Source: Pseudoalteromonas nigrifaciens | GTDB lineage: Bacteria; Pseudomonadota; Gammaproteobacteria; Enterobacterales; Alteromonadaceae | NCBI RefSeq assembly: GCF_002221505.1 | Contig: NZ_CP011036.1 | Location: forward strand, 1,426,001-1,490,000 | Reading direction: 5' to 3' | DNA length: 64,000 nt | In this document: positions 24,734-58,418 of the stretch, in pieces | Position numbering within the stretch: position 1 is the first letter of the stretch | Layout: the number at the start of each line of letters is the position of its first letter | Translations under genes and position numbers: made by a program | Notes under the pieces: model-generated | What the model was told of the DNA's origin: nothing | The model's input: the letters and a program-made list of their open reading frames with translations, nothing else | Database searches by the model: none

Positions 24734-26185
24734 CTACATGCTTTGTGCGTAGTTATATAAGGCTTTTAAAATGGTTAGGTTTTTTTCACTGTCGTCGTGC
24801 TCATGGGCTAAATTCTCAAGTGTGATCATAAAGTCTTGAGCGTTAATTGAGGGTTGATCTTCCCCGTGCATTAACTTGTTTTGACAATACTGACGCCATT
24901 GATCCAGCTCTTGCTGGTTAAGCGTTTGCGGCCAGTTACGAGCGCGGTATCTAAACAATAAAGTATTAAACTTTTTATTTTCAAAATCGAGTTTTAAATC
25001 GGCTAAGTCTTCGGGTTTTGCATCGCGAATAATCGCAAATTTAGCTTTATCTGCATGGCTAGTAAACCCATCGTAAAGTAAATAGTCAACGTTAGTTGTT
25101 GCGCTGTAATCGCCTTGTTCGTTAAACACCTCAGTTACTTTATCGCGCAACTCGCTATTGGCTTTTAACACCGCCAAGTTTTTTAAACATTGCTCGCGGT
25201 CAATGCCTAAACGCGCTGCATTTTCAGGTAATAACGTTTTAGCAGGTGCTAAAATAGGGCACTTGTTTAAATGCACTAGTTTTAAGCCTACGGGTAATTC
25301 GTCTTCAGCTAAATCAATACGCTTGGTATATAAACGTTTACGTAATTGCTCAACACTTAAATCAATAAGTACTTGTGGGCTTTGAGTTAAATCAAAACAA
25401 ATTACGGCATTTTTATTTACCGGATGAAAGCTCATAGGTGCAACCCAGCTAGTACAGCCTTGCGTTGCTGGAATGCGTGAGCTGGTATGTACGAGCGGGG
25501 TCATGTTAAATACATCAACCAACTCAGCTAAGGCTTTTTTACCACGTAAACTAAAAAAGAAGTTATACAGCTTCGGCTGCTTGTCTTTTATTAGTTTAGC
25601 CAGTGCAATAGTAGCGGTTACATCGCTTAGTGCATCGTGCGCCGCAGCGTGTTCAATACCGTTGGCAACGGTTAAATGCTCTAACTTAAAGCTTGGGCTA
25701 CCGTCTTCTTTTAACGGCCATTCAATGCCCTCTGGGCGCAGTGCATAACAAGCACGCACTAAATCAATAATATCCCAACGGCTGTTGTTGTTTTTGTATT
25801 CGCGCTCGTACGGATCGTAAAAGTTACGATAAAAGCTATAACGGCTTACTTCGTCATCAAAGCGAATACTGTTATAACCGGCAACACAGGTATTTGGCAC
25901 ACTAAATTGTGCATGAATTTTTGCTATAAATTCAGCCTCAACCAAGCCTTTTTTCATCGCCACTTGTGGCGTAATGCCGGTAATTAAACACGCCTCAGGA
26001 TGCGGCAAGTAATCCGCCTGCGGTTTACAGTATTCAATAAGCGGCTCACCAATAATATTCAAATCAAGATCGGTACGAACACCCGCAAACTGGCTCGGCT
26101 TATCCTTTTGCGGACTAGCCCCCCAAGTCTCGTAGTCGTGCCAGTATATTGTAGGTTGTATTTCGTGGTATGTTGGTTCGCTCAT
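24734..26185 (-). CDS. sbcB: Exodeoxyribonuclease I with a phage-supplied N-terminus
   Basis: SbcB degrades single-stranded DNA 3'-5' in repair and recombination. The 483-aa protein matches E. coli Exo I throughout: HDYETWG (DEDD exonuclease residues), CLITGITPQ, YNSIRFDDEVSRYSFYRNFYDPYEREY, NGIEHAAAHDALSDVTATIALAK and a C-terminal helical domain. The first nine residues (MSEPTYHEI) and the start codon come from prophage DNA. Host sequence begins at the att core, which encodes QPTIYWHD. The native start, MAYQEQN, survives at 58398-58418. Promoter and ribosome-binding site (AAGAGA) are therefore also phage-derived, in a region shared with the integrase. Confidence 0.95.
   Translation of the reverse strand: MSEPTYHEIQPTIYWHDYETWGASPQKDKPSQFAGVRTDLDLNIIGEPLIEYCKPQADYLPHPEACLITGITPQVAMKKGLVEAEFIAKIHAQFSVPNTCVAGYNSIRFDDEVSRYSFYRNFYDPYEREYKNNNSRWDIIDLVRACYALRPEGIEWPLKEDGSPSFKLEHLTVANGIEHAAAHDALSDVTATIALAKLIKDKQPKLYNFFFSLRGKKALAELVDVFNMTPLVHTSSRIPATQGCTSWVAPMSFHPVNKNAVICFDLTQSPQVLIDLSVEQLRKRLYTKRIDLAEDELPVGLKLVHLNKCPILAPAKTLLPENAARLGIDREQCLKNLAVLKANSELRDKVTEVFNEQGDYSATTNVDYLLYDGFTSHADKAKFAIIRDAKPEDLADLKLDFENKKFNTLLFRYRARNWPQTLNQQELDQWRQYCQNKLMHGEDQPSINAQDFMITLENLAHEHDDSEKNLTILKALYNYAQSM
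26136..26158. other. attL core (left prophage junction)
   Basis: This 23-bp sequence (starting TCGTGCCAGTATATTG) is identical to 58375-58397. It lies inside the sbcB coding region (codons for QPTIYWHD) and is the crossover region of the prophage. Confidence 0.93.
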
Positions 26186-26272
26186 TCTGTCTCTTAGCCC
26201 TTTTATAATGCGGGTTTTTAGTGCGCTTTAGTTTGTTGTTGTATCTTTGTGTGTGTTGTAATCTGCGCATTG

Positions 26273-26315
26273 TGTGTATATTATTGTGTATAATTTTTTT
26301 GCTAACTGTGTATAA
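26273..26315 (+). promoter_or_regulatory. Left arm-type integrase sites (three copies)
   Basis: TGTGTATAT (26273-26281), TGTGTATAA (26285-26293) and TGTGTATAA (26307-26315) are directly repeated just inside attL and before int. The first two are 12 bp apart, the same spacing as the pair at the right end, which fits arm-site binding by the integrase N-terminal domain. Confidence 0.6.
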
Positions 26316-26323
26316 AATATTAA

Positions 26324-27550
26324 ATGGCAATCAGTGACACCAAATTAAGAAAGCTGCTAGATAAAAATCAAACACCGTGCGTATTATCGCATAGAGACAG
26401 TTTAAGTGTAAGAGTATCAGCCAAAGGCACAATCACTTGGCAGTATCGTTGTCGCGTGGATAACAAACAAGTAATAATATCGCTTGGCCGTTATCCGGGG
26501 CTAAGCATAAAAGAAGCGCAAGACTACATACCACTACTTCAAAACTGGCTAAGCCAAGATAAAGACCCACGAATCGAACTAAAGCTTATGCGCAACCAAG
26601 CCAAAGGTTTACCAACAATGGCAAAAGTGGCAACCGATTGGTTAAATAAAAAAGTACCCGACCTAAAAGAAAAAACCCAAACTTTATACGCAAACCAAGT
26701 GGGCAAATGGATAGTGCCGCTTTTAAATGACGAAGCAATGCCACTCGACCTAATGACCATAAAAGACTGGTTTACCTATTTTGATAAAGTAAAAGAACAG
26801 GGTAGCGCTAAAACAGCCGGCACAATATTAGTGCGCATAAAATCAATAATAGGCTGGGCAGAAAAACGCGGTGAAGCAAAACCATTTAATCCAGTACTAA
26901 CCTTAAACGTAAACGACGTAGGCGAACAAGCAACAATAGGCCAGCGCGTAATGCGCTTTGATGAAATAGCAAAACTGTGGATACAAATAGAAAGCTCAAA
27001 AGCCACACCAGCAACCAAAGCATGTTTGCAATTAATTTATATAACAGGTGCTAGGCAATCAGAAGTTCGCTTGGCCAAGTGGGAGCATTTCGACTTTGAT
27101 AACAACATTTGGACAGTACCGCCCGAAAACTCAAAAACAAACCAAGCCATACGCAGGCCAATATCTAAAAAAATGCACAGCATATTAAATACACTCGCCA
27201 TGGTTTACGGCAAAAGCGGCTATTTAATACCAGGCAATAACCCGCGCAAACCAGTAACCACCCACAGCATAAACCGTTATTGCTGCAGAATGTGGGATCA
27301 CCTATTTACTAAGTACAAAACACCCAAGTTTTTACCACACGACGCCCGCCGCTCAATATCAACATTGCTCAGTGAAAACGGCATAGCACCACACGTAACC
27401 GAAAAAATGCTAGGCCACACAATGCGCGGAGTAATGGCAATTTATAATAAACACGATTGGATAAAAGAGCAGGCCGAAGGGTACGAGTTATATTGCCAGC
27501 TAATCGAAAACTCGATAAAAGTAGAATTAGCCAAAGCATTGCCTGTATAA
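26324..27550 (+). CDS. Prophage tyrosine integrase
   Basis: The 408-aa integrase of the P4-like family has an N-terminal DUF4102-like arm-binding domain (about 1-90, SVRVSAKGTITWQYRCRV and ISLGRYPGLSIKEA), a core-binding SAM-like domain (about 95-190) and a catalytic domain with Arg244 (TGARQSE), His339 and Arg342 (HDAR), His365 (LGH) and nucleophile Tyr374. It recombines attP with the sbcB site. It starts 138 bp from the hybrid sbcB start and is divergent from it, with the arm sites between them. Confidence 0.95.
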   Translation: MAISDTKLRKLLDKNQTPCVLSHRDSLSVRVSAKGTITWQYRCRVDNKQVIISLGRYPGLSIKEAQDYIPLLQNWLSQDKDPRIELKLMRNQAKGLPTMAKVATDWLNKKVPDLKEKTQTLYANQVGKWIVPLLNDEAMPLDLMTIKDWFTYFDKVKEQGSAKTAGTILVRIKSIIGWAEKRGEAKPFNPVLTLNVNDVGEQATIGQRVMRFDEIAKLWIQIESSKATPATKACLQLIYITGARQSEVRLAKWEHFDFDNNIWTVPPENSKTNQAIRRPISKKMHSILNTLAMVYGKSGYLIPGNNPRKPVTTHSINRYCCRMWDHLFTKYKTPKFLPHDARRSISTLLSENGIAPHVTEKMLGHTMRGVMAIYNKHDWIKEQAEGYELYCQLIENSIKVELAKALPV

Positions 27551-27618
27551 ATACACAGGTTGTTAAAGTCTGAACGAAAACTTAACCTGTTTACTAAATA
27601 AAATTAAAAGGAATTATT

Positions 27619-29170: not shown

Positions 29171-29809
29171 CTAAAACGACTTACCAGCAAATATTATTTT
29201 ACCCACCAACGTGCAATTGCCGTTTATCGGTATTAGTTGCTCAGGCCAGTTAGGGTTAGCGGCTTTTAAAAACTTTTGGCCGCTTTCAATTATTAGCTGC
29301 TTGAAGGTGGCTTCGTTGTTGTCATCTAAACGCGCTACTACGTATGAACCGTGAACGCACTCAGCCTCTGGGTCTACAAATATTAAATCACCTTCGTAAA
29401 ACTTAGGCTCCATACTCACGCCATGAACTTTTAGCGCAAATGTTTGATCGCTGCACTTTACAGGGCATAAATAACGGTCTGCATCATATTCTTTTATTTC
29501 ACTTATTTCAGACCATGCCCCCGCTTGTACCCAGCTTATTAATGGCACAGCCGCTTTAAGCGTAGGCCCTAATGAAACATTGCTATTGATACTCTTTTCA
29601 CCGTCTTGAGTTTCACCAATACCAAACAGTAAGTATTCTGGAGTGCAGTTTAGAGCTTCCGCGAGGGCGTCTATTTTACGAGGGCGTTTTGTTTCTCCAG
29701 ATTCAATATTGTGAATAGAGTTTTGTGCTAAGCCCGCCATTAGACCTAATTGCGCTTGCGTCATCCCTAACTGAACACGTTTTTTTTCTACTCTTTTACC
29801 TAAATCCAT
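29171..29809 (-). CDS. Prophage repressor, CI/LexA-like with S24 peptidase domain
   Basis: The 212-aa protein has an HTH_XRE domain (about 5-60, MTQAQLGLMAGLAQNSIHNIE) and a C-terminal S24 domain. The predicted self-cleavage bond is Ala96-Gly97 (WVQAGAW), with catalytic Ser132 (GVSMEPKF) and Lys170 (EATFKQL). It should hold the prophage silent and be inactivated by RecA after DNA damage, so induction by the SOS response is expected. Classical P2 C repressor lacks this domain; the HP1/K139-like lineage differs. It is divergent from the Cro-like gene across four operators. Confidence 0.93.
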   Translation of the reverse strand: MDLGKRVEKKRVQLGMTQAQLGLMAGLAQNSIHNIESGETKRPRKIDALAEALNCTPEYLLFGIGETQDGEKSINSNVSLGPTLKAAVPLISWVQAGAWSEISEIKEYDADRYLCPVKCSDQTFALKVHGVSMEPKFYEGDLIFVDPEAECVHGSYVVARLDDNNEATFKQLIIESGQKFLKAANPNWPEQLIPINGNCTLVGKIIFAGKSF

Positions 29810-32047: not shown

Positions 32048-35000
32048 ATGAGCATGTGGCCCATTGTAAGCTTTGATGTTGTAACAGCGGTTTTAACCAT
32101 GGTTAAAGCCGTTGACGACATTGAACACAGAAATTTTTTAATAAGCGGCCTTGGCCGTTTTACTGCGTACAGCCAATATAAAATGGCTAAGCAATACCTT
32201 GCCAAAATTACCCCGCCTAGCAACGCCTGGTATAAAGACGAGCCTATAAACCCAAGTGAGCAAGCCCACATTTGGCTTTATAATGTGCTTAAAAATGCAG
32301 AGCACCGCATTGACGTAACCAACTTAAAAATAAGCGTGCCTGCAAAAGCCGCGCTTAAAAAAGTGCATAACAACAACATTCATAATTACATTGTTAAAGA
32401 CATTGTAGAAAGCAAGCGCGCGCCAAGCATACAAGCTAGCTTTGTGCGCCAAACTGCAAAAAACATGGAGTTTGCACAAAAGCAGCGCGACGTAAAAAAG
32501 CCCCAACCTGTAGCAGCAAAGAATTTACAACAAGCGGATGGCGATCAGGTTACTAAATCTGCCATGTCGGTTATTGCTGCTATTGATGATGCAGAGCAGG
32601 TTGCTTATGTTTATAAGTGCCTAGCTGGCGTGCCCAAGCCGTTACAAATGCGTGTTGCTAAGCGTTATATTGATAAATACACCCACATTAAAAATACGGG
32701 CAAAGCCAAAGGCGAAACGCAAGAGCAATACAACGAAAGGCTAATAATTGCGAGCCGTAAAAACTACGACTTTAGCGATAAAAAAACAGCGAATAAAAAG
32801 CAAGTAATTACAGTAGCCGAAGTGCGCAAGCAAATTACCGCAAACGACTGGTTGCGCCGCACAATTACAACACTACAACCACGCCTAAAAATACTTGAGC
32901 AAATTGTTAGCAATATGCCATTGCCATGGCACATTTTAGCCAATGCCGATAAAACCAAAAAGCACGGCAATGTGCTGGCTATGCAAACGGCTGAAATGAT
33001 ATCTGACCTAAAAAAAGAGCAGCCAACATGGGATGCAACCGACATACACGAAAAAGTAAACGAGTTTGCAGGTCAATTTAGTATCCAACTTAAATATGCA
33101 GTTAAGGGCGTTTACTTAACCGTGCCGGATGCCGAAGTAGACCTTTTAAAAGCGCAGTGCCACAAATGGTGGTCGCGCAAGCTTAAAACTATTCGCAGCC
33201 GCTACCTAGAGCACCTAGAAATTGCAACGGGCGAAGTGGGCCGCGATTTATTTAATAGCACAGATAAAAAAGGTAATAAAAAAACAGAGCGCCGCGGTAT
33301 TAGCGCCTATTGCTCAAAACAAGCAGTGGCCGAATACACCACCAACCAAGAGCGCGGCAAACGTTACCTAGAAAGCTTAGAATTAGTAAACGAGCAAAGC
33401 GATGTTATATCGCTAATGAAAGCGGTTGAGGCAGGCGTTGCCAACCCCGAAAACATGCGTAACGAGTTAATGCTACGCATTCGCGAAACCGAAGAATTAG
33501 CCGACGAAATGGGTTATACGGGCGGTTTTTATAACATTACTGCGCCTAGCCGTTTTCATGCAAACTCGCCTACGTGGGATGGGTCAACCCCAAAAGACGC
33601 TAGCCTGTATTTAAATAAGCTGTATTCGCAAGCGCGCGCTAAATTAGACCGCCTTGAAATACCGTATTTTGGTATACGGGTAGCAGAACCGCACGCCGAC
33701 GGTTGCACACACTGGCACATGCTTTTGTGGATGCCAGCGCGTTACTACGACCAAGTTAATCATTTATTGCGCCGTTATTTTACCCGCGAAGACCGCGAGG
33801 TGTTTTTTCAGCGCTTTAAAAACCGCAAAGCATTACGCGCACGCTACACAAAGGCGCGCCGTATTTGGGGTTTAAATAAATCTAAAAAGGTGTACACCCG
33901 TGCACCGGTTAAAAACTACTTTCCGAGCAGCCCACGCTATACCGCTATAAAAATGCTACCTGCGCAAATTGGCAAAGATGGTAAAAAAACAGGCGGCGCA
34001 GCGGCTTATGTTGCTAAGTACGTAAGTAAGAATATTGATGGTTTTGCATTGGCAAACGAGTACGACGCAGAGACAGGAGAAAAACTAACCCAAGCAGTTA
34101 ACCCGGTTAAAGCATGGGCTAGCACATGGGGCATTAGGCAATTTCAGTTTCAAAAGTCGCCATCTATTACCATTTGGCGCGAACTGCGCCGAGTGCGCGA
34201 AGAGGTGCAAGGTAACGAGCAGTTAGAGCAAATACGCCAAGCGGCCGACAAGGGCGACTTTAAAACCTTTGTTGCGCTAATGGGTGGCTTTGGCATTGGC
34301 CGCGATGCGCGCTTTAAGCCCGCTTATCAGCATACCGAGTACGGCAATCAATACGCAGAATTTACTAAAACTCTAAAGGGCGTTGAAGACACCTTTGGCC
34401 TTTGCACGCTTGTTACTCGCGTTCATACCTGGTCTAAGCAAGCTATAGGCACAGCAGCAGCAGAAAACACCGCCGTTATTGGTGGGCAGGATGCCAACAA
34501 CGTCAGCGCAGCTGACCTACCTTGGACTAGTGGGAATAATCGTACGCCTTACTCAGTAGGGCATACAGACGCATTATTGCTAAATATGATCGGTTTTACT
34601 TCAAAAGAGATCATTAACGTTAAAAAGGATCTGTTAGCGGGTAAGCGGGTTAGAAATAACGGCCATATTTACTTAATTGAAGACGGCCATTTAGTGGTAC
34701 TGGATGAAGCGGCGCAGCAAAAAGAGCATCGCCAACACGCTATTGACTATATAGCCAACAGCGAAGCGCAAAAACACGCCCCAACTAACGAGCAAACCGC
34801 CGCTAAATGTAAAAACAAGCTTAGCGACTTTAGCCCTGCGCAAATAAAAGAGCTAAACCAAGGCGGCAACGTGATCAGCGGCAACCGTGTTTACTACATG
34901 CAAGAGCGCGAGCTACACAGCTTTGAGCAACTAAACATGCAAGCGCCAAAATCGGCTATTAAACCAACCCCAACCGAAAAACATTTTGCATACGCTCGCG

Positions 35001-47364: not shown

Positions 47365-47565
47365 ATGGATGATCTAGACCACCTAGTAATTGCACAGGAA
47401 CGCGCTGAAAAACGTTTTGTTGATCAGCGCCTAAACGGACTTAAAAACAGCCGCGTTATTAGTGCAACGGACTGCATTGATTGCGGCGACCCAATACCAA
47501 AAGCGCGACAAAAAGCCATAAAAGGTGTGCAGCGCTGCGTACCGTGCCAATCGTTAAGCGAGTAG
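47365..47565 (+). CDS. DksA/TraR-type zinc-finger protein
   Basis: This 66-aa protein has the C4 zinc finger CIDCGDPIPKARQKAIKG...CVPCQ, as in the short DksA/TraR proteins found in many P2-like phages. It might modulate RNA polymerase during late expression. It sits between the tube and lysozyme genes. Confidence 0.9.
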   Translation: MDDLDHLVIAQERAEKRFVDQRLNGLKNSRVISATDCIDCGDPIPKARQKAIKGVQRCVPCQSLSE

Positions 47566-47569
47566 CAAA

Positions 47570-48121
47570 ATGAACAATATTAAAGTGAATTACAATTTTA
47601 TTTCAGAGCTAGAAGGCGGCGCGCAACTAAACGGCTATGTGCCCGATGCAGCCAATTCTAAATCTGGAGTAACCATTGCCACTGGCTTTGATATTGGGCA
47701 ATGCGACGAAGCTGCATTGAAATACTTATTGCCCGAATTTATTGCTAATAAATTAAAGCGTTTTTGCTTATTAAAAGGCAACCAAGCATTAAAAGCATGT
47801 AAGCAAAACCCGCTTAACATTAACGAAAATGAAGCAACCATTATTGATTTATGCGTTAAGCAGCAATCAACCGATTACCTAGTTGCTACTTACAACAAGC
47901 ATTCAGCCATTAAGTTTGAGCAACTGCCAGAACCTATGCAAACCGTTATTGCGTCGGTGGCATTTCAATATGGCAATTTAGCCAAGCGTTGCCCTAACTT
48001 TTGGCGCACGGCCATAACCCAAAACACGCAAGCCATGATTGACGAACTGGTTAACTTTGGCGACCGATACACAACGCGCCGCTGGCGTGAAGCTACTTAT
48101 TTACAACAAGCGGAGTGCTGA
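47570..48121 (+). CDS. Phage endolysin (pesticin/T4-lysozyme-like muramidase)
   Basis: The 183-aa protein has a catalytic-type ELEGG near the start and GYVPDAANSKSGVTIATGFDIGQ (split GYVPDAANSKSG / VTIATGFDIGQ), typical of the pesticin C-terminal lysozyme group. No signal peptide, so it needs a holin. It starts 4 bp after the zinc-finger gene and its stop overlaps the holin's ribosome-binding region. Confidence 0.85.
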   Translation: MNNIKVNYNFISELEGGAQLNGYVPDAANSKSGVTIATGFDIGQCDEAALKYLLPEFIANKLKRFCLLKGNQALKACKQNPLNINENEATIIDLCVKQQSTDYLVATYNKHSAIKFEQLPEPMQTVIASVAFQYGNLAKRCPNFWRTAITQNTQAMIDELVNFGDRYTTRRWREATYLQQAEC

Positions 48122-48123
48122 TC

Positions 48124-48513
48124 ATGGGCTGGTTTTCAAAAGTATTTAATGGCAACCCAATAGAAGCCATTGGCAAAGCGGGCGATGCATTATTCACATC
48201 AGACGAAGAACGCCAGCAGCTAAGCAACGATTTAGCAGAGATTCAGCAAAAACCGCTGCTAATGCAAGCGCTAGCAAATACCCATGCAGCACAACACCGC
48301 TCAACTTTTGTAGCGGGTGCACGCCCTTTTTTACTCTGGGTGTGTGGTTTTGGCTTTTTGTTTACTTTTTTAATAAACCCTATTTTGCAATGGATTATGC
48401 CTGAAGCCGGAACGCCAGAACTGCCAACAGATGTAATGATGGAATTAACCCTCGCATTACTTGGCCTAGCAAGTTTAAGGACAGTAGAAAAAATTAAAGG
48501 AGTAGCCAAGTGA
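48124..48513 (+). CDS. Holin of the 3TM/GTA type
   Basis: The 129-aa protein has an N-terminal amphipathic region and hydrophobic helices at about 60-85 (RPFLLWVCGFGFLFTFLI) and 98-115. ATG 48124 (MGWFSKVF) has CGGAG 8 nt upstream. It opens the inner membrane for the endolysin. Confidence 0.8.
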   Translation: MGWFSKVFNGNPIEAIGKAGDALFTSDEERQQLSNDLAEIQQKPLLMQALANTHAAQHRSTFVAGARPFLLWVCGFGFLFTFLINPILQWIMPEAGTPELPTDVMMELTLALLGLASLRTVEKIKGVAK

Positions 48514-48764
48514 AAGAAGTAGCCGACTGGATAATGGTAGCCATTGCCTTTATTAGCCTAGTGCTAACCGTATTAGTGCCGCTGTTAGTGAGCCTATTTA
48601 ACGCCCACAAAGCAACGGCCAAAGAGCTAAGCGACCACAAAACCCATGTGGCCGAAACGTACGCCACCAAACCCGATTTTGAAAAATTAACTGATCGTAT
48701 GGAAAGCCGCATTAAAGACGGATTTGAAACACTCGAAAAACTATTCACCAAATCTAAGGAATAA
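48510..48764 (+). CDS. Small membrane protein of the lysis cassette
   Basis: The 84-aa protein has one N-terminal membrane helix (about 7-30, IMVAIAFISLVLTVLVPLLV) and a coiled-coil tail. Layout resembles DUF2730 proteins or an Rz-type spanin, but no partner Rz1 lipoprotein is seen. GTG start overlapping the holin stop. Confidence 0.75.
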   Translation: MKEVADWIMVAIAFISLVLTVLVPLLVSLFNAHKATAKELSDHKTHVAETYATKPDFEKLTDRMESRIKDGFETLEKLFTKSKE

Positions 48765-48766
48765 CC

Positions 48767-49030
48767 ATGAAAAAGCACGTTGTACTAACACTTGGCGCAA
48801 ACGACATCAACTTTGAAGTAACCACCGAAACTTATAACGGTTACCTAAACGACATTATGCCAAACAACAAAGTGGCTCCAGCGCATAACTTTGTAATGCG
48901 ATCAGTAGTAGACGAAGACAAAGAAAAGCTACGTAAAGTACTCGACGATTCGCCAGGTGCAGCAATGCAAATTTGTGGCTTGCTACAGCAGGAGTTTGCC
49001 CCAGCAATTGAAATTAGCGTAAAAAAATAA
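48767..49030 (+). CDS. Tail assembly chaperone (P2 gpE-like), unshifted product
   Basis: The 87-aa protein sits directly before the tape measure gene, where contractile and non-contractile phages encode the tail chaperone pair. The gene ends with GTA-AAA-AAA-TAA; the A-AAA-AAA heptamer (49021-49027) allows -1 slippage to the next open frame. Produces both a short and a long form. Confidence 0.8.
   Translation: MKKHVVLTLGANDINFEVTTETYNGYLNDIMPNNKVAPAHNFVMRSVVDEDKEKLRKVLDDSPGAAMQICGLLQQEFAPAIEISVKK
49021..49027 (+). promoter_or_regulatory. -1 programmed frameshift site A-AAA-AAA
   Basis: The seven-A heptamer is in phase with the gpE-like frame and directly followed by its stop TAA. Slippage reads on as K-I-N-A-L-V-E-A. 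Confidence 0.8.
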
Positions 49031-49218
49031 ATGCGCTGGTTGAAGCCATAGACAACAACCAGATCGAGCAATTGCTAACGTATCGGCGGAAAATACTCCC
49101 GCACGAAGACGACAGCGAACTAAACATTGCTCGTGCTGCATGGCTTTTAAAACGCCAGCGTGAAGACCTAGAAACACTCGTTGCCAATGCAGTGTGCAAA
49201 GCCTTTGGAGGCAAGTAA
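49027..49218 (+). CDS. Tail assembly chaperone extension (E' part, made by frameshift)
   Basis: The 63-codon open frame has no start of its own need and begins at the slippery site. It reads INALVEAIDNNQIEQLL and ends AVCKAFGGK, typical of T/E' chaperone tails. The fusion with the upstream frame would be about 150 aa. Its stop abuts the tape measure ATG. Confidence 0.8.
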   Translation: MNALVEAIDNNQIEQLLTYRRKILPHEDDSELNIARAAWLLKRQREDLETLVANAVCKAFGGK

Positions 49219-50979
49219 ATGAGTTTACCGCAACAGCTAATGTTTACCGTTGGTATGATTGACCAAATTACTAAGCCTATTGCAAAAATAAGCAGTAGCC
49301 TTAATGGGTTAACCAACGACTACCAAGCTGGCACCATGAAAATGGCGTCGGGCGTTGCGGGTATTGCGGCCAGTGGTTATGCACTACAAAACGCACTCAT
49401 GCCAGCCATAGAAATGGACCGCGCACTAGGCGAAGTAAGCTCGCTTGGTGTGCGCGAGTCTGCATTAAAACAACTTACCGACACCTCGTACCAATTTGCG
49501 CTTAAGTACGGCAAATCGTCTACCGAATTTGTTAAATCGAGTTACGACATACAAAGTGCCATTGCCGGGCTAAACGATGCCGACTTATCGGCATTTACGC
49601 TATCGAGCAACGTATTAGCTGCGGCCACTAAGTCAGACGCAGGCACTATTACCAATTACATGGGCACCATGTACGGTATTTTTAAAAACCAAGCCAACGA
49701 AATGGGCAAAGGCGAATGGGTAGAACAACTAACCGGCATGACCGCAACCGCAGTACAAGCGTTTAAAACCACAGGTACAGAAATGTCGGGCGCATTTACC
49801 GCCATTGGTGCACAAGCAACCAGTGCCGGTATAAGCATGAACGAACAAATGGCCATACTAGGCACATTGCAAGCAACCATGTCGGGCAGTGAAGCAGGCA
49901 CAAAATACAAATCGTTTTTAGCTGGAGTAGGCAAAGCGCAAGACGCACTCAACCTAACCTTTACCGACAGCCAAGGCGCAATGCTGCCAATGGTCGACAT
50001 ACTAAACCAAATAAAAGGCAAGTACGGCGAAACCATAGACGTAGCAGAAGGCGACGCACTTAAAAAAGCATTTGGCTCAGCCGAAGCCGTAGCCACCATA
50101 AACTTATTAATGAACGACATTGATGGCCTAGGTAAATCAATAAACGACCTAGGTGATGTAACCGGCATGCAACAAGCCGAAAAAATGGCAATGAGTATGA
50201 CCGACCAAAGCGAGCGACTAAGCCAAAGCTGGTATGTAATTCGCGCTGCATGGGGCAGCGCAATACTGCCCGTATTTAACGACTTTGTAGGCATGATTGC
50301 CGACATGGGCACCAGCGTTGTGTGGTTTACCGAAGCATTCCCTAATTTAACAAAATGGATAGGTTACGCCGCCGTTGGCGTGCTTGGCCTTGTAGCTGCA
50401 GGCGGATTATTTACGCTAATGATGGGCGCAGGAAAAATGGCCATAGTTGCATGGACAGTAGGCGCAATGGTGTGGGGCGGTATAACCACCGCACTAACCA
50501 CAGGGCTAACATTTTTAAAAGGCGCAATGCTGGCACTTAACATTGTTATGTACGCCAATCCAATTTTATTAATTGTTGCAGGAATAGTTGCCGCTATTGC
50601 CGCCGTGGGTGCATTGATTTATTACTGGGACGACCTAAAAGCAACTATGGGCGAATGGGGGTGGATAAAAGCAATTGTAGGCGTGTTTACCTCGGTTTGG
50701 TCAACCATTAAAAATTTATTTACTGGCTACCTAAATTGGTGGATAGACAAAATAAACATGCTGCCCGGCGTAGACATAGAACTAATAAGCTCAGGCTCTA
50801 ATGCCAGCACATCAAGCATCGACGCAATAGAGCCAATTAGAAGTAAAGCCGAAAAAGGCGGTATTACTCAGCAAATAAGTAACGCAAACCAACAAAAATC
50901 AACCAGCGTTGGCACTGTTAACGTGTACCCAGCCAAAGGCGAAACTAACTTTATGAACTTTGTGGAAATGCAGTCATGA
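49219..50979 (+). CDS. Tail tape measure protein (P2 gpT-like)
   Basis: The 586-aa protein has the TP901-type N-terminal region (ALGEVSSLGVRESALKQLTD, LSSNVLAAATKSDAGTI, AGTKYKSFLAGVGKAQD) and a hydrophobic stretch at about 370-480 that crosses the membrane during injection. Its length sets tail length; it is short compared with P2 gpT (about 815 aa), so a short tail is predicted. Confidence 0.92.
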   Translation: MSLPQQLMFTVGMIDQITKPIAKISSSLNGLTNDYQAGTMKMASGVAGIAASGYALQNALMPAIEMDRALGEVSSLGVRESALKQLTDTSYQFALKYGKSSTEFVKSSYDIQSAIAGLNDADLSAFTLSSNVLAAATKSDAGTITNYMGTMYGIFKNQANEMGKGEWVEQLTGMTATAVQAFKTTGTEMSGAFTAIGAQATSAGISMNEQMAILGTLQATMSGSEAGTKYKSFLAGVGKAQDALNLTFTDSQGAMLPMVDILNQIKGKYGETIDVAEGDALKKAFGSAEAVATINLLMNDIDGLGKSINDLGDVTGMQQAEKMAMSMTDQSERLSQSWYVIRAAWGSAILPVFNDFVGMIADMGTSVVWFTEAFPNLTKWIGYAAVGVLGLVAAGGLFTLMMGAGKMAIVAWTVGAMVWGGITTALTTGLTFLKGAMLALNIVMYANPILLIVAGIVAAIAAVGALIYYWDDLKATMGEWGWIKAIVGVFTSVWSTIKNLFTGYLNWWIDKINMLPGVDIELISSGSNASTSSIDAIEPIRSKAEKGGITQQISNANQQKSTSVGTVNVYPAKGETNFMNFVEMQS

Positions 50980-51311
50980 GTATTTATAGCGACCTACATA
51001 TTAAAAACGGCGATGTGGTGTTAGACGCAGGCAACAACCCAACGTATTTAAGCAACCGCGACGTAATAGCCCAAGACATAGTGCACGCAATTTTAGACAC
51101 CGGCCTTGCAAACTTATTAGTAAGCGACCGAGGAACAGGCGTAACCCAAGACACCCAAACGCAAATAAAGCTACTGGTTGAAGACGACTTACGCATTATG
51201 CCTGGCACCGTGCAAGTTGAGCAAAACCAAGTTAACAAAGGCCAGTGGTGGGTAACTGCTAAAACCATCGAGTTTGGCGCTATTTCATCATTGATCATCG
51301 AGGCACAATAA
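50976..51311 (+). CDS. Baseplate-associated protein (DUF2590, gpW/gp25-like position)
   Basis: The 111-aa protein (IYSDLHIKNGDVVLDAGNNP; VSDRGTGVTQDTQTQIKLLVEDDLRIMPG) fits the DUF2590 pattern of HP1-like phages and occupies the place of the gp25/W baseplate wedge. Overlaps the tape measure by 4 bp and the J-like gene by 1 bp (TAATG). Confidence 0.82.
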   Translation: MSIYSDLHIKNGDVVLDAGNNPTYLSNRDVIAQDIVHAILDTGLANLLVSDRGTGVTQDTQTQIKLLVEDDLRIMPGTVQVEQNQVNKGQWWVTAKTIEFGAISSLIIEAQ

Positions 51312-52507
51312 TGGCTGACCTAACCCCAATAATCGACTTTAAACGCATTGTAGAAAACGCAGGCATTCCCACTACTGAGGAAGGTTGGAAAACGCTATTT
51401 AAACAAGACGTAGACGCAAGCGGCAGTATTATTGCAAACGAGTCGCCATATTCACCATTTTGGCGACTTATTAGCGCCATTGTGGCAAAACCTGCAACAT
51501 GGTTAGTAAACAAAGTATTAATTGAAAAAATACTGCCAAACCTGTTTTTACAAACAGCCACCGACAGCCAATTTATTGAAGCCAAAGCGTGGGAGCACGA
51601 CCTAACCCGAAAAAGCGAAGAGCGCACACAAGGCAAAGTGCGTTTTAACCGCGCCGCCAATACAGGCCCCAGCTTATTAATTAGCGCCGGTACAGTAATA
51701 CAAACCGATGCCATAAACGGCACGGTTTACCGTGTGCTAACCATTAACGACGTAATATTGCCTGAAAACCAAACCAGCGTATTAGTGCCAGTAATTGCCG
51801 AAAACGCAGGCGCAGCTTACAACCTAGGCGCAGGTTATTACCATATTTTACCCGAAGCGGTAACAGGCATTAGCAGCGCTATAAACGACGAACACTGGCT
51901 TGATGCACTCGGTGCCGACGCAGAAACAAACCAAGATTTAAAACTACGTACCCGCAACGCATTTACCGCCGCAGCGCCGTGGCACATTGACGCCGTTTAC
52001 CGCGCTATTTTAACGCAGCGATCAGGCCTTGATACCGACAACATATTTTTTGAGCACGACGCCCCGCGTGGCCCGGGCACTGCAAACGCCTATATTTTAT
52101 TAGACACAGGCACACCCAGCCAAAGCCTAATTGATGATTTAAACGACTATGTTATGGCAAAAGGCTTTCATGGCCATGGCGACGACTTACAAGTAATGGC
52201 CATGCCAGGCATTAATGTAAGCGTAGGCGTAACCATTTACCCACACGCCTACTTGCTCGAAACCCAAGTAACGGCATTGCTCGCCAATGTTGAAAACTTT
52301 ATACGCAGCGCGTTTAGAGAAAACACCGACTACACAGTAACTAAAACGCAGCCCGCTAGCCGCTTTAGCTTTAGCCGCCTAAGCCAAGAGTTACACAAAG
52401 AGTTTGACGGTATCGACTCATTAAACTGGCACCAAACCGATATAACCAGCCAAAACAACGTGCCGCGCTTAACCGCGCTAACCATAGAAAACGGTAATGC
52501 GCTATGA
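51311..52507 (+). CDS. Baseplate protein J-like
   Basis: The 398-aa gpJ-type wedge component has KVRFNRAANTGPSLLISAGT and the conserved VPVIAENAGAAYNLGAG region, followed by RTRNAFTAAAPWHIDAVYRA. Overlaps neighbours by 1 and 4 bp. Confidence 0.92.
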   Translation: MADLTPIIDFKRIVENAGIPTTEEGWKTLFKQDVDASGSIIANESPYSPFWRLISAIVAKPATWLVNKVLIEKILPNLFLQTATDSQFIEAKAWEHDLTRKSEERTQGKVRFNRAANTGPSLLISAGTVIQTDAINGTVYRVLTINDVILPENQTSVLVPVIAENAGAAYNLGAGYYHILPEAVTGISSAINDEHWLDALGADAETNQDLKLRTRNAFTAAAPWHIDAVYRAILTQRSGLDTDNIFFEHDAPRGPGTANAYILLDTGTPSQSLIDDLNDYVMAKGFHGHGDDLQVMAMPGINVSVGVTIYPHAYLLETQVTALLANVENFIRSAFRENTDYTVTKTQPASRFSFSRLSQELHKEFDGIDSLNWHQTDITSQNNVPRLTALTIENGNAL

Positions 52508-53136
52508 ACATAAACTGGCAAGCGCTTACCAAAATGCCGTATTGGCTAGCCCGCCCCAAAAGCGAGCTAGACAAACTACGCCAAGCAGCCGTTATTTATT
52601 GGCAACGCGTAGCCGACATACTGGCATGGCCTGCAAGGCAGCTAGACCCAATGACCGCCGAACTAGAGCTAGTAAACCTACTCGCATGGGAGCGCGACAT
52701 TAGCCAAATACCCAACGAAACCGAGCTAATGTACCGCACCCGCGTTAAATACGCCCTGCAATTTGCCAAAGGAGCAGGCAGTAAAGAGGGGTGGTATTTT
52801 ATGTTTGAAAAACTCGGTACGCCGTGGATCACCATTGACGAACGAGTAAGCGAAACCGATTGGGATGTAGTGAGTTTACAGCTTTTAGACTCAGATTTAG
52901 CCGAGCGAAACCAGCTTATAGATAACATCTGCAGACAGTACGGCCGAACAACACGGCGCTACCAATACGACACAATTGCCAGCATGCCACTTATTGCACC
53001 GCCAAACGACTTTGCATTAGACAGCCTAACCGGCTTTGCAAAGCTCAATGACGACATGAGCCCAAAGCTTGGATTGGCGTTAATGGATAACGAATCACAT
53101 TTTATTATTGCAACAAATAAACAGCTTATTAGCTAA
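52504..53136 (+). CDS. Tail protein I-like
   Basis: The 210-aa baseplate protein lies between J and the fibre gene, as P2 gpI. The conserved region is LELVNLLAWERDISQIPNETELMYRTRVKYALQFA, with LLAWERDI as a recognisable core. It attaches the fibre to the baseplate. Confidence 0.87.
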   Translation: MNINWQALTKMPYWLARPKSELDKLRQAAVIYWQRVADILAWPARQLDPMTAELELVNLLAWERDISQIPNETELMYRTRVKYALQFAKGAGSKEGWYFMFEKLGTPWITIDERVSETDWDVVSLQLLDSDLAERNQLIDNICRQYGRTTRRYQYDTIASMPLIAPPNDFALDSLTGFAKLNDDMSPKLGLALMDNESHFIIATNKQLIS

Positions 53137-53154
53137 AACAAAAGAGGAATTAAC

Positions 53155-55608
53155 ATGGCTTCAGTAATTACAATTGCAGGTGAAAAGCTTTTTGCTGAAA
53201 AAGCGCAAGCTAATGAGCAACTAGACATAGACACGTTTATTTTTGCAAACGTACCCGCTCAAGACCCAGCAGCACCAATTAACCGCGATGAGCTTTTACC
53301 AAGCGATCATATAGTGCATCAACAAATAGTGCAGCAAGTAGGCCGCATTAACGAAAACGTAGTGGTTTACTCAACCGTGCTAGACAGCGTAACAGGCCCG
53401 TTCGAATTTAATTGGGTGGGGTTGTTTTCTTCAGTAAACCAAACATTAGTAGCTATTAACCACATACCAAGCACCGCCAAAACAATTACCGAACCAGGCG
53501 CGGCGGGTAACACCCTAAACCGTAACTTTGGTATTGAATATTCAGGTATAGCGGATTTAACGGGTATTAACGTAGCGCCAGAAACATGGCAACTAGACTT
53601 TACCGCGCGCCTAAGCGGCATGGACGAGCTAACCCAGCAATTAGCCAAAGATTTAAACGGTGTAGACTCATTTATTGATGATGGCTTTAAAGTAACACCG
53701 CGTAGTGCACTTAACTCATTTGAAATAAAGCCAGGCGTTGGTTACATAAATGGATTACGAGCTGAGCTTAAAGAAGTTACTTATTTAAATGTTAGTGAAT
53801 ACCCAAAATACGTTTATGGGGATGCTTATTTTGAAGGCGATGCAGCATCAACATGGGCGCCACGTGTCCAATGTTATACATCGGATGTTGAAATAGACGA
53901 CTTTATTGATGAGCAAGGCAGAAAGCACTTCTTGGCCAAGCTGGCTATTATTCATGGTTATAATGAGGTTGAAGAGAAGCGTATAAAATTTAATTTAAGA
54001 CAGGATAGCTCAGTAAGAGCTTTTGAAAAATTAGACGATGCAAAAAAAGACAGGTTATTAAAGTTAGATCAAGAATTTAAAGTAAATGAAAGGAATGCAG
54101 TTTATAAAGTTAGAAAAAAAAATGAAGAGGTTGTAGATAACACATTAGCAATACAGTTATACGAGAATGATTTTATAGGTAAACTCATGATGGATAAGGA
54201 AGTTACTGAAAAAAATTTAGGGATAGTTGCAGGGGATGTAGCTTATGATCTGTTCAATATAGACATTCTAGATAGTGTAAGAGATATACTCATAGAAAAG
54301 AACATAAAGTTTGTAATTGATAGCTCAGAAGATATAGCAATTAGAAGAGAGTTTAAGTTTGTCCGATCGTTAGATTTAAAACCATTAAGAATTAAAACAG
54401 CAGGAGGTGGGGGGTTCCTAAGAACAGGCATTGTTAAAGATGAAATAGAGGGTCAGAAAGTGCTTTCAGTTGGAGAGCAAAAAACCTTTGTTAAAGGAGT
54501 AAGGTTAGAGGGAGGTTTACCAGTTCGATTTAGCTCTTTAGTTGGCAGCGACGGCAAGCTGCCGAATAGAAGAGGAAGAAATACAACTTGTTTGTACTTA
54601 GGGAATATGTATGATTTTGAAATTGATGTTATTTTATCATATGGCGAAAATGCAATATATGGGAAAAGTATTTTTAATGGTAGTGGTAAAGTAAACATAG
54701 AGTGGTGCCATAAAGGATGGGCTTTAAAGCCTCTTTCTATAGGGTCCGCAGGTAGTGCATGTACAAGCTTAGATTTTAATACAAATTTTGATTTCACAAT
54801 ACACCCTTTTGACATTGAAAATGTTGTTTACTCTAAATTCAAAGGGTATTGCCAAGCTATAAGAATGCAGTATGAGCATTATGAAAGTGATGAAATAGCA
54901 ATTATTTTTAGAGATGAAGGGTTAGGATCTGTGTCATTTGAGTATGGCATAGAGGCAGTAGAGGCAATGTATAGATATAATTCAATTGTGCCTTCGTATA
55001 TAGATATGAAGTTGCGCATCGAGTTAGGAAACAGCAAGGAAAATCACTTTGAAATAGATGCCAGCAGAGTTTCAAACGTACCATTTTTAGATCAAGCATA
55101 TTTCTCAACTATACCACCCGGTGTTTTGGCATTCAAGAACACGCAATTTAGCGGCTCTACGGTAAGACAATCAACAAATGAAACTCCTGTATTCCATAAG
55201 CCAAATAAAGAGACGAGAATAAGCTTAGATGGTGGGTATATTGAAAGTGGGGAATATTTTAAAATGAAATCAAATAATTCAATATGGGAAAATGTATCAT
55301 CTACAGGTGCTAGGTTTGAAAATGGTTTCTTATATCCCGATGGTAACGAAACTAATTTTAATGTAAACAATGGTATAAATTTAATAGATTTAGGTGAAAT
55401 TGAAATAGATAGTAATGGTGAGGTAGAAATAAATGCCCCGAGTGGTTTTGGTAGAATTTTATTTGTTAATATACATGTAGTTAGAAGTACAAATGAATCA
55501 ATCAATGGCTTGACTATAATGGAAAGAAAATCATTTTCATGGAAATATAAAACAGGGTTAGGGAATGGTTTTTTTGTAAACGCGTCAATACTTTGTTTGA
55601 AGAGTTAG
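53155..55608 (+). CDS. Tail fibre protein (gpH-like), mosaic
   Basis: The 817-aa protein has an N-terminal about 190 residues that form the conserved tail-collar fibre domain (DUF3751-like, ASVITIAGEKLFAEKAQANEQ core), which docks on gpI. From about residue 200 (base 53750 onward) the DNA becomes markedly AT-rich, with frequent AGA, ATA and GGG codons unlike the flanking phage genes. The rest is probably beta-helical and unrelated. This indicates a swapped receptor-binding module. No separate fibre-assembly gene follows. Confidence 0.88.
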   Translation: MASVITIAGEKLFAEKAQANEQLDIDTFIFANVPAQDPAAPINRDELLPSDHIVHQQIVQQVGRINENVVVYSTVLDSVTGPFEFNWVGLFSSVNQTLVAINHIPSTAKTITEPGAAGNTLNRNFGIEYSGIADLTGINVAPETWQLDFTARLSGMDELTQQLAKDLNGVDSFIDDGFKVTPRSALNSFEIKPGVGYINGLRAELKEVTYLNVSEYPKYVYGDAYFEGDAASTWAPRVQCYTSDVEIDDFIDEQGRKHFLAKLAIIHGYNEVEEKRIKFNLRQDSSVRAFEKLDDAKKDRLLKLDQEFKVNERNAVYKVRKKNEEVVDNTLAIQLYENDFIGKLMMDKEVTEKNLGIVAGDVAYDLFNIDILDSVRDILIEKNIKFVIDSSEDIAIRREFKFVRSLDLKPLRIKTAGGGGFLRTGIVKDEIEGQKVLSVGEQKTFVKGVRLEGGLPVRFSSLVGSDGKLPNRRGRNTTCLYLGNMYDFEIDVILSYGENAIYGKSIFNGSGKVNIEWCHKGWALKPLSIGSAGSACTSLDFNTNFDFTIHPFDIENVVYSKFKGYCQAIRMQYEHYESDEIAIIFRDEGLGSVSFEYGIEAVEAMYRYNSIVPSYIDMKLRIELGNSKENHFEIDASRVSNVPFLDQAYFSTIPPGVLAFKNTQFSGSTVRQSTNETPVFHKPNKETRISLDGGYIESGEYFKMKSNNSIWENVSSTGARFENGFLYPDGNETNFNVNNGINLIDLGEIEIDSNGEVEINAPSGFGRILFVNIHVVRSTNESINGLTIMERKSFSWKYKTGLGNGFFVNASILCLKS

Positions 55609-55610
55609 TC

Positions 55611-56102
55611 ATGCTAACACTTAACTCATTATCAATTACCCTTAAGTCACTTCGTATTACGGCAAGCCAAGAGCTTGCCAGTGAAGACGCTAGCGGCCAG
55701 TCGTCTAGCACCGACCAAGCCGAAACGGGCATTAAAGCTAAAACATTGGCTGTGAGTGGTTTTTTAACATTCACTCAAGCTGAGCACTTAGCACAATTAT
55801 TTGATATGGCCGAAGCCACCGAAAGTGGTGCACGGGTTATTTTTCGCATAAGTAATCATACGGCCAGTGCACTGGGGGTTAAACAAGTACGCTTTAGCAG
55901 CAAAATTGAAGCTGTAGAGCAGCAAACTACCCGCCAATGGTCTGTTAGTTTTACCCTTAGCGAATGCCGTTCTGTGCCTGAAAAAGTGGAAGAGCGAACA
56001 CCCCCAGCCGAAGCAAACCAGCAGGGCGGTAAAAGCAATGTGCAATATGCAAATATTGGTGATCATCTACAAAAAAACTTTGAATCGTTGAGAACCGTGT
56101 AA
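55611..56102 (+). CDS. Conserved tail/baseplate protein after the fibre gene
   Basis: A 163-aa protein, not firmly identified. ATG 55611 is 2 bp after the fibre stop; an upstream TTG would overlap the fibre. It contains AKTLAVSGFLTFTQAEHLAQLFDMAEA (core LTFTQAEHL), predicted to mix beta strands and helices. GC content returns to the phage average here. The place corresponds to P2 gpU. Confidence 0.72.
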   Translation: MLTLNSLSITLKSLRITASQELASEDASGQSSSTDQAETGIKAKTLAVSGFLTFTQAEHLAQLFDMAEATESGARVIFRISNHTASALGVKQVRFSSKIEAVEQQTTRQWSVSFTLSECRSVPEKVEERTPPAEANQQGGKSNVQYANIGDHLQKNFESLRTV

Positions 56103-56791
56103 TGGCTACCGCAAACGCTCGTTTTATTGCCCGCGCTTATATCAACGATTCAAAAGTTGATATGAAAGACCACTGGATAGTGCTGCAAGCATCAACGCCA
56201 GGTAACTGCCAAATAACAGTTAACCAAAACGTTGCTAAGTTAGCACCGGTTGCGGTTGATCTTGGTTGGGGCAATATGGTCGACCGCGTATTTAACGGCT
56301 ATGTTGAACGTGTAATGCCAGCCGTAAACGGCTGGTATACGCTATTTTGCCGTGAGTGGTCGGCATCACTCGCTTATAATTTAACAGTAATGCTGCGCCA
56401 TCCAACCATGCGCCAAGTGCTTGACGAAATCACAGCACAAACGGGCGTTGAATTTGTAATACCCGATAAAACTTACGCCAATACATCAATACCTTGCTTT
56501 TACTCTGATAGCTCAGGCTATGCCATGCTAAACAACATCGGCCGTGCATTTCGCATTGCCGATTTTGTATGGTATCAACAAGGCAACGGTAAAGTTTATG
56601 TGGGCAGCTATGTCGATTCGTTTTGGTCCGATAAACCCGTATCAATAGCTAACGAACTCATGACCGATCATCAAGCAGGTAAAACCGCAAAAATGGCAGC
56701 AGCCCCAATGATACGCCCAAACGTTATAGCCAACGGCGAGCGTATAACCGCTGTTGAGTTTCAAGGCACAAACATGAAGATAAGTTGGTAA
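56102..56791 (+). CDS. Baseplate hub protein (P2 gpD-like)
   Basis: The 229-aa protein resembles the phage late-control D/gp27 hub: an N-terminal beta domain (HWIVLQASTPGNCQITVNQN), then LRHPTMRQVLDEITAQTGVEFVIP and YSDSSGYAMLNNIGRAF. Overlaps the previous stop by one base (TAATG). Shorter than P2 gpD (387 aa). Confidence 0.75.
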   Translation: MATANARFIARAYINDSKVDMKDHWIVLQASTPGNCQITVNQNVAKLAPVAVDLGWGNMVDRVFNGYVERVMPAVNGWYTLFCREWSASLAYNLTVMLRHPTMRQVLDEITAQTGVEFVIPDKTYANTSIPCFYSDSSGYAMLNNIGRAFRIADFVWYQQGNGKVYVGSYVDSFWSDKPVSIANELMTDHQAGKTAKMAAAPMIRPNVIANGERITAVEFQGTNMKISW

Positions 56792-56793
56792 CG

Positions 56794-57537
56794 ATGGAAA
56801 AAGCAATATTAAGAATTGTGCGCCGGTTGTTTCCAGAACTAACGGGCCAATTACATTTACCGCGCTGGGGCAGAGTGGTTGCATTGCCCGAACTACCTTT
56901 AGAGGATGGCGAACGCGGTAGCGATGCATTTTACCCACGCTATGCCGCAAACGTTCAACTCATTGACGAAAACGGCACAGACACCAAATCAAAACCACTT
57001 CAAGCCGTGCCGTTACCATTGCCAGGCGCGGGCGATAAAGCAGGCCGACTAGAACCGCCGGCTATTAATTCAATTGTAGAAATTGGCTTTGCCTATGGCC
57101 GAGCCGATAAACCATTCATTAGAACAGTTCTACCCTTTGGTTGGGACCTACCCGCAATCAAAGAAGGTGAAACCCGCACTCAAGTACGCGAAGGTGTATA
57201 CCAACACATAGATGAGCACGGCAACTTTGAAAACAAAACCGACGAGTCATTAAAAGACATCATCGGTAAATTAGCCGACCTACAATGTGAAAGCCGCAAA
57301 GTAATAGCAACCAAAGAGCAAGAGCATAAAAGCCCTAAAACATGGATAGGCAGCGACAGCGAAAACGTACTCAAACTACTATCAGAGTTAATGGCCACAG
57401 TAAAAGATATAGCAACAGAATGCGCAACACATAAACACAGCCCAACAATGGCACCACCAACAACAGCTGCAGTGTTTACAAGTAAAGCAGATGAAGCAAG
57501 CGCCCAAAAATCTAGGCTCGACCCAATAACAAAGTAA
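56794..57537 (+). CDS. Baseplate spike protein (gpV/gp5-like)
   Basis: The 247-aa protein has an OB-fold-like N-terminus (RVVALPELPLEDGERGSDAFYP; PPAINSIVEIGFAYGRADKPF) and a C-terminal region with THKHSPTMAPPTTAAVF, reminiscent of the His-x-His metal site at the tip of P2 gpV. It punctures the outer membrane. Start ATG 56794 lies 2 bp after the hub stop. Last gene of the late operon. Confidence 0.82.
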   Translation: MEKAILRIVRRLFPELTGQLHLPRWGRVVALPELPLEDGERGSDAFYPRYAANVQLIDENGTDTKSKPLQAVPLPLPGAGDKAGRLEPPAINSIVEIGFAYGRADKPFIRTVLPFGWDLPAIKEGETRTQVREGVYQHIDEHGNFENKTDESLKDIIGKLADLQCESRKVIATKEQEHKSPKTWIGSDSENVLKLLSELMATVKDIATECATHKHSPTMAPPTTAAVFTSKADEASAQKSRLDPITK

Positions 57538-58081: not shown

Positions 58082-58249
58082 ATGGAAAAGCTAGATCGAA
58101 TCGCAAAACTAAACACAGAAATGTTGGCTGTATTAACCCTATTAATCAGAGACGAAAATTACACAGAACTGAAGCACCAACTATTGGACTCAGCACTGCA
58201 AAGGCTTTTAAATAATAGCGAGTCTATAAATCAGGAGTTGTTGAATTGA
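58082..58249 (+). CDS. Possible small helical phage protein (55 aa)
   Basis: The ORF MEKLDRIAKLNTEMLAVLTL continues to QELLN and looks like one amphipathic helix or coiled coil. It ends directly at a good terminator, which favours a real transcription unit. There is no clear Shine-Dalgarno. This spot near attR is a common place for lysogen-expressed accessory genes. Confidence 0.45.
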   Translation: MEKLDRIAKLNTEMLAVLTLLIRDENYTELKHQLLDSALQRLLNNSESINQELLN

Positions 58250-58272
58250 AAAAGGGCTTAATGCCCTTTTTT
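58249..58272 (+). terminator. Terminator after the small ORF
   Basis: AAAAAGGGC / GCCCTTTTT with a TTAAT loop, followed by T. Confidence 0.88.
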
Positions 58273-58292
58273 ATTTTAGAAAACGAAAGCAG

Positions 58293-58313
58293 TGTGTATA
58301 AAAGTGTGTATAA
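58293..58313 (+). promoter_or_regulatory. Right arm-type integrase sites (two copies)
   Basis: TGTGTATAA at 58293-58301 and 58305-58313, direct repeats 12 bp apart, matching the left-end copies. Confidence 0.6.
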
Positions 58314-58340
58314 ATTAGTTGAAGGTAAAGTAATAGGTTT

Positions 58341-58418
58341 TTAAAAACAAGGTTTTACATGGGAATTATCATAATCGTGCCAGTATATTGTAGGTTGATT
58401 TTGCTCTTGATATGCCAT
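58341..58418 (-). pseudogene. sbcB: Orphaned native start of sbcB
   Basis: Reading leftward from ATG 58418, codons give MAYQEQN (host), then QPTIYWHD (att core), then phage codons DYDNSHVKPCF and a stop, 25 residues in all. AAGG lies 8 nt before the ATG. This is the original translation start of the host exonuclease I gene, cut off by prophage insertion; excision would rejoin it to the gene body. Confidence 0.88.
58375..58397. other. attR core (right prophage junction)
   Basis: Identical in all 23 bp to 26136-26158 in the same orientation. Confidence 0.93.

Follow-up and report, generated by a model that had tools for sequence, protein, structure and literature searches.

Introduction

Mobile elements at dusA replace the 5' end of that conserved gene and carry putative promoters (PMC4482086), and in a Vibrio integrative and mobilizable element of the dusA type the new start gave a lower measured expression (PMC8409611). 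A P2-family prophage in Halomonas is among the dusA-associated carriers (PMC11131426). The SXT integrative and conjugative element at prfC also inserts at a 5' end and brings a new promoter and N-terminus (Hochhut and Waldor 1999, as cited in PMC8409611). The subject of this work is a P2-like prophage in the 5' end of sbcB, the gene of exonuclease I (Exo I), in a 64,000-nucleotide stretch of the Pseudoalteromonas nigrifaciens genome (contig NZ_CP011036.1, positions 1,426,001 to 1,490,000; hereafter the window). An earlier note on this DNA had set such a 5' replacement apart from the behaviour of known elements, a view that is not supported, as the dusA elements and SXT at prfC do the same (PMC4482086, PMC8409611).

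The prophage resembles the dusA elements in being inserted at the 5' end of a conserved gene, in leaving a remnant of the host start at the far att site, in supplying an in-frame replacement of the 5' coding sequence, and in that P2-like prophages are among the carriers. It differs from them in its target and in the replaced part, which is a short variable leader rather than a strand of the fold. The fossil starts and serial swaps described below do not appear in the dusA passages of PMC4482086, PMC8409611 and PMC11131426. The dusA elements have a putative or measured promoter. In the studied prophage a promoter towards sbcB is presumed, and consensus scans found none. SXT shares the 5'-end insertion with a new promoter and N-terminus, but it is a conjugative element and uses another gene.

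Phage 2851 at sbcB is known to us through citing papers; a 2008 report by Strauch is said to deal with it. In enteric bacteria sbcB has been reported as a site of Stx2c phages, and Sf101 lies in the sbcB 5' end (PMC4159516, PMC3519850, PMC8309913, PMC7175801); the passages on sbcB phages in these four papers do not mention a replaced start. The literature searched, with most subscription journals uncovered, held nothing on fossil starts, on a replaced start or on an sbcB-wide integrase clade. The mechanism class, in which a 5' end is replaced, is already known, as is sbcB as a target in enterics; the scale and history of the sbcB start replacement appear to be new.

Results

Exchange of the sbcB start

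The prophage extends between two exact copies of a 23-bp core, TCGTGCCAGTATATTGTAGGTTG, which encodes QPTIYWHD of SbcB (Table 1). Extended to 39 nt, the copies are 85% identical; none of the other three direct-repeat families listed for positions 20000-64000 (seed 14, minimum 18) is as long. The sole sbcB match in this genome is the gene at the left end, which reads MSEPTYHEIQPTIYWHDYETWG... on the minus strand. Its first nine codons, MSEPTYHEI, come from the phage. The host start, MAYQEQN, remains at attR at the head of an open reading frame (ORF) of 25 aa that reads MAYQEQNQPTIYWHDYDNSHVKPCF. The last residue encoded by the core, D17, is invariant in an alignment of 12 sequences, and from what is known of DEDD exonucleases we take it to be the first catalytic aspartate. 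The replaced residues 1-9 precede the part that can be aligned with solved Exo I sequences (residue 10 or 12 onward). Ahead of the new ATG, AAGAGACAG is a plausible phage ribosome-binding site.

The earlier note had proposed a search for the uninterrupted gene in relatives without the prophage. In close relatives where no integrase was detected, the empty sites (for example in G086, G068, G015 and G063) read MAYQEQNQATIYWHDYETWG; there sbcB starts with MAYQEQN, not MSEPTYHEI, and is preceded by the upstream region that lies beyond attR in the prophage-bearing genome. The native start adjoins the far core in G000 (the genome under study), G101, G005, G084, G036 and G003. Relatives with the integrase have the leaders MSEPTY[HY]E[NTI], MNNESYQEN, MANREYYDT and others. 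As judged from these sequences, it is confirmed that the N-terminus of sbcB and the DNA upstream of it were exchanged for phage DNA and that the host start was orphaned, and on these points the earlier note was right.

The same note had described an attP mini-ORF of 27 codons. This holds for the phage of the window, but the part beyond the core is not conserved: across 11 prophages there are nine different tails, giving 19-31 codons. The attP of phage mEp234 encodes a 19-codon version beginning MTDTDKQPTFLFHDY. A peptide function for the mini-ORF is unlikely on this variation, and the peptide was rejected as a functional product.

Rearrangements were also seen in the host DNA upstream of sbcB. 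Several relatives have the small gene that lies past attR (58756-59169) in duplicate or at a displaced position upstream of sbcB, G097 and G057 with two copies. In G074 the native sbcB upstream region occurs a second time, lacking a core, ~4.3 kb upstream of a native-start sbcB (G074:C47:76545-76665, in L206); it is perhaps an old attR remnant left after the native start was regained. In G006 (G006:C73:4374-4780) the native upstream region is split by ~0.3 kb of other DNA, giving two partial matches.

Arm-like sites and fossil starts in the genus

The ATG of sbcB and the start of the integrase gene (int) are 138 bp apart, and int reads away from sbcB, so that the two genes form a divergent pair. 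The segment between them holds three TATACAC-like sites, and two more lie on the attR side (Table 1). Their arrangement resembles that of the arm sites in the attP of a tyrosine integrase, where Int would bind. In 1.155 Mb of fetched sequence, read on both strands, spaced pairs or triples of these sites occur only at att or fossil att sites.

The genus was sampled with 108 genomes, one per species. Beside sbcB, a full-length match to int is present in 16 of them and a decayed one in 12; G070 and G078, counted among the 16, have one stop within the aligned stretch. At least two distinct arm-like sites with the 12/22/34-bp spacing were found in all 28 genomes with int and in 18 of the 80 without it, the other int-less genomes having one site (six genomes) or none (56). 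Over all 108 genomes, resampling predicts two sites in 0.64 genomes and the spacing in 0.11. A stricter script with a shorter window recovered spaced pairs or triples in 26 of the 28 genomes with int and in 13 of the 18 with arm-like sites only. Altogether, 46 of the 108 genomes have a phage-derived sbcB start, and in 18 of these no integrase was detected and only the arm-like sites accompany it.

These 18 arms-only genomes fall into five groups (G032/G033/G026/G104; G050/G061/G106/G007/G094/G052/G053/G093; G021; G080; and G083/G018/G045/G044), and G032 retains the apparent first codons of int, as read by eye in the alignment. Left uncounted were G051, G060, G071 and G075, whose starts resemble phage-type or fossil starts over part of the region but have few or no arm sites, and the int fragments, weak or C-terminal, that lie close to sbcB in G047, G051 and G068.

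The distribution of these starts was compared with an sbcB tree (107 rows, first 40 codons excluded, quick search; G059, with a partial sbcB, left out). Full-length int is scattered on the tree, with 15 changes against a shuffled mean of 15.2, whereas the arms-only starts are clustered, with 7 changes against 16.9. Together the two patterns indicate repeated integration, with some captured starts inherited by several species. In three of the 11 attR sites examined (G034, G072 and G037), the orphan start has arm sites of its own upstream, indicating that the start displaced by the present prophage was already phage-derived. The G037 orphan, MNKTDQDQ, resembles the phage start MNKTDQKQ of G027 and the start MNKTDQNQ of G030, a genome with an int remnant only.

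Conservation of the reading frame

Phage-derived starts are in frame in 76 of the 76 cases read by script, drawn from the genus genomes with a full-length int match (16), a decayed one (12) or arms only (18) and from 30 sequences outside the genus. The start codon is ATG in 74. In resampled leaders an ATG is expected in ~15.3 of 76; in the two remaining frames the leaders show an ATG in 2 and 10 of 76 cases. The leader of L253 falls outside the pattern of the script, and its in-frame ATG was read separately. The in-frame leaders agree across different lengths and sequences; between G046 and G034, for example, the leader has a nine-base gap.

The body of sbcB is open in 107 of 107 genus genomes. 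SpyCI at mutL is an example of regulated gene integrity. SPbeta at spsM is reported to interrupt a host gene that is restored on excision. The interruption of a host gene by a mobile element is common to these systems and to sbcB, but sbcB is open in the lysogen as in the other genomes, which speaks against a gene-off state.

An integrase clade associated with sbcB

In the family, 16 of 395 genomes were matched at E values up to 1e-60, and at all 12 loci from outside the genus the integrase lies beside sbcB and is divergent from it. A search of the order with an alignment as the query gave some match at 1e-50 in 120 of 394 genomes. Thirty loci were fetched and examined: 20 of the 22 best-scoring ones lie beside sbcB and none of the next eight does. 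The 20 loci span 8 families and include the studied window and G133, one of the 12 from the family search. On a tree of 46 chosen integrases (the input lacked L219, L238 and L255, and the program dropped L254), the position beside sbcB requires one change without L249 and two with it. L254 is broken by stops. At L249 (1-1500), an insertion sequence (IS)-type transposase and the apparent start of another integrase adjoin instead of sbcB, and this neighbourhood possibly consists of tandem elements.

The E. coli counterpart and isolated phages

The 5' region of K-12 sbcB was matched in 5371 of 5426 complete E. coli genomes, in 4793 with at least 80% coverage. In an evenly spaced set of 60 there are seven shortened sites, at which the match starts at query base 177-184, corresponding to codon 7-9. 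All five that were fetched have a tyrosine integrase ~180 bp upstream, and the start MTDTDKQ replaces MMNDGKQ. A phage-type 5' start module (at least 80% of its length) is present in 575 of the 5426 genomes at 579 places, one of them on a plasmid; among the ten matches listed, all are on sbcB. The integrases of the E. coli sbcB prophages belong to the same clade as that of the window, with 36% identity to it, and are divergent from sbcB. In isolated phage genomes the int-to-core segment with its start was found in 13 records with 8 names, 12 of them matching at least 80% of the query; carriers include HK140, mEp234, HK544 and Sf101. For the E. coli counterpart this is direct evidence that the module is the phage's own DNA. 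The mEp234 record labels its attP 'type 2851', similar to sbcB.

Phages of the 2851/Sf101 kind use the same gene and codons, their 13-bp att covering FHDY (PMC4159516), and the core of the window likewise lies over the HDY codons of sbcB. The integrase clade is shared with the E. coli sbcB prophages L230 and L243, which stood for this kind of phage in the clade test; the int-att module of L230 is in turn matched by Sf101 and mEp234. The 2851 and Sf101 phages are lambdoid, whereas the studied prophage is P2-like.

Gene content of the prophage

The prophage resembles P2-like phages in its gpA replication protein and its P2-type head and tail genes (Table 1). The gpA gene is 81% identical in DNA to that of Pseudoalteromonas phage C5a and 84% to that of PY3. 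In P2 the 3' end of int faces attP, whereas in the studied prophage the 5' end of int faces attL. The phage collection contained no record with an integrase match of at least 60% identity to the prophage int. Gene content was also examined in seven of the 16 genomes with full-length int besides the window. P2-like genes including gpA are present in five of these regions (G027, G088, G034, G072 and G037). The 60 kb fetched for each of G078 and G092 contain few or no P2-like genes, and these two elements look like remnants.

Further observations concern the prophages themselves. Between int and the repressor of the window (27619-29121) lies the gene of a 500-aa WYL-domain protein with a weak match to CRISPR- and defence-linked WYL regulators, and an imperfect 28-nt direct repeat occurs at 36330-36357 and 36635-36662, 305 bp apart. 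Additional fragments from the C-terminal part of integrases of the same family lie in or near prophages at L033 6619-6825, L052 3252-3707 and G048:C210:163579-163971, which suggests stacked or recombined elements. Near the lone integrase of G092 (L197 7435-11607) is encoded a 1390-aa protein with a kinase domain like those of PD-T4-6 defence proteins.

Table 1. Positions in the window of the prophage, its junctions with sbcB and its main genes
Feature	Position	Strand	Size or basis
sbcB (exonuclease I) with phage-supplied start	24734..26185	-	both Exo I Pfam domains
Nine phage-encoded codons, MSEPTYHEI	26159..26185	-	
Core at attL, encoding QPTIYWHD (last residue D17)	26136..26158	-	
Core at attR	58375..58397	-	
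Orphaned host sbcB start, 25-aa ORF beginning MAYQEQN	58341..58418	-	ORF reading
Host DNA preceding sbcB, similar at empty sites	58419..58530	-	
int-sbcB segment of phage DNA; presumably holds the new sbcB promoter and leader	26186..26323	-	
Arm-like site TATACACA, -165 from IYWHD codon	26307..26314	-	
Arm-like site TATACACA, -143 from IYWHD codon	26285..26292	-	
Arm-like site TATACACA, -131 from IYWHD codon	26273..26280	-	
Arm-like site, attR side, +76	58305..58312	-	
Arm-like site, attR side, +88	58293..58300	-	
P2-like prophage, left core to right core	26136..58397		~32.2 kb; gene content and core repeats
Tyrosine integrase (int), sbcB-associated clade	26324..27550	+	domain matches, integrase tree
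CI-like repressor (helix-turn-helix and S24)	29171..29809	-	
P2 gpA-like replication endonuclease	32048..35182	+	
Portal, terminase, scaffold and capsid block	37822..42829		
Tail sheath, tail protein, tape measure, fibre and baseplate genes	45782..57537	+	

Discussion

The observations are very probably explained by gene-preserving integration at the 5' end, in which an integrase clade targets the codons around Asp17, the attP carries a replacement start for sbcB, and fossil starts stay behind. The tyrosine integrase would recognise the highly conserved codons around Asp17, and the attP beside the 5' end of int would carry a start codon with the DNA ahead of it, followed by a short leader that reads in frame into the core. 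Through integration by this integrase the host start would then be exchanged for the phage start, with Exo I left whole save for variable N-terminal residues outside the conserved part. On this reading, which is the simplest, the phage would pay for its site by bringing a start for sbcB, as the dusA elements do, and phages of the same integrase clade would do likewise in several families of the order. A phage-derived start can remain in place once its prophage has decayed, and be replaced in turn by later integrations. The swap, the kept frame, the integrase clade, the fossil starts and the serial replacement are visible in the sequences themselves. The phage segment would have to contain a working promoter, and Exo I expression would be maintained by selection.

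Several points weigh against this reading. Neither the phage segment nor its E. coli counterpart yielded a promoter towards sbcB in consensus scans, though such a null result is not evidence that a promoter is absent. Of the replacement of promoter and N-terminus claimed in the earlier note, the N-terminus and the upstream DNA are of phage origin, and a new promoter in that DNA is presumed. The arm motif was defined only after phage sequences had been seen. The sequences and genomes are related and do not amount to independent trials, and the integrases of L230 and L243 are identical. The integrase tree comes from a quick search and has long branches, and two integrases with high scores, L249 and L254, have other neighbours than sbcB.

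The swap could instead be a pure by-product, functionless beyond the in-frame start, with captured starts spreading by drift. The variability of the N-terminal residues, which fall outside what can be aligned with solved Exo I, would fit this, as would the new start of one dusA element that lowered expression (PMC8409611). On the other side, the 76 in-frame starts of 76, against 15.3 expected, show that a usable start is kept but are silent on whether regulation matters. We regard the by-product explanation as possible but rather unlikely.

At the other extreme, the start modules may be regulatory parts: Int or an excision factor at the arm sites would set the Exo I level, excision would free the host promoter, and modules would have been captured repeatedly as useful to the host. 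With arm-like sites upstream of sbcB a phage control of Exo I is possible, yet we consider this proposal doubtful as a whole.

A takeover for the benefit of the phage is quite improbable. On this account, put forward in the earlier note, the promoter was replaced so that the Exo I level follows the state of the phage (repressor, Int, excision factor), to the advantage of phage DNA, for example during rolling-circle replication. The phage does encode a gpA-like protein, and since arm-like sites lie in the new 5' region between int and sbcB, binding of Int could affect both genes. However, phage-type starts persist where no integrase was detected and hence work without it, and the consensus scan identified neither an operator nor a promoter in the phage segment. 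Lambdoid phages are not known to replicate from a gpA-type start. Because lambdoid E. coli phages use the same integrase clade and site, rolling-circle replication is rejected as the general reason for the swap.

A reverse origin, with MSEPTYHEI-type starts being host alleles taken up by phages, is highly improbable: although some int-less genomes carry starts like those of phages and the phages must once have gained the module, the int-less copies keep arm-like sites at the phage spacing, G032 keeps its apparent int codons, and full-length int is scattered on the sbcB tree.

The beginning of this conserved DNA-repair gene proves exchangeable: in 46 of 108 genus genomes its start and upstream DNA are of phage origin, and a phage start module for it is present in 575 of 5426 complete E. 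coli genomes. Differing SbcB N-termini in databases need not be annotation noise. Exo I is an enzyme of recombination and mismatch repair, and differences in it between lysogens become directly testable. The genus offers a graded series for studying promoter capture, from prophage through decayed prophage and arm sites only to a second replacement. If the start modules were indeed regulatory, phage promoters would repeatedly have become the lasting promoter of a core DNA-repair gene.

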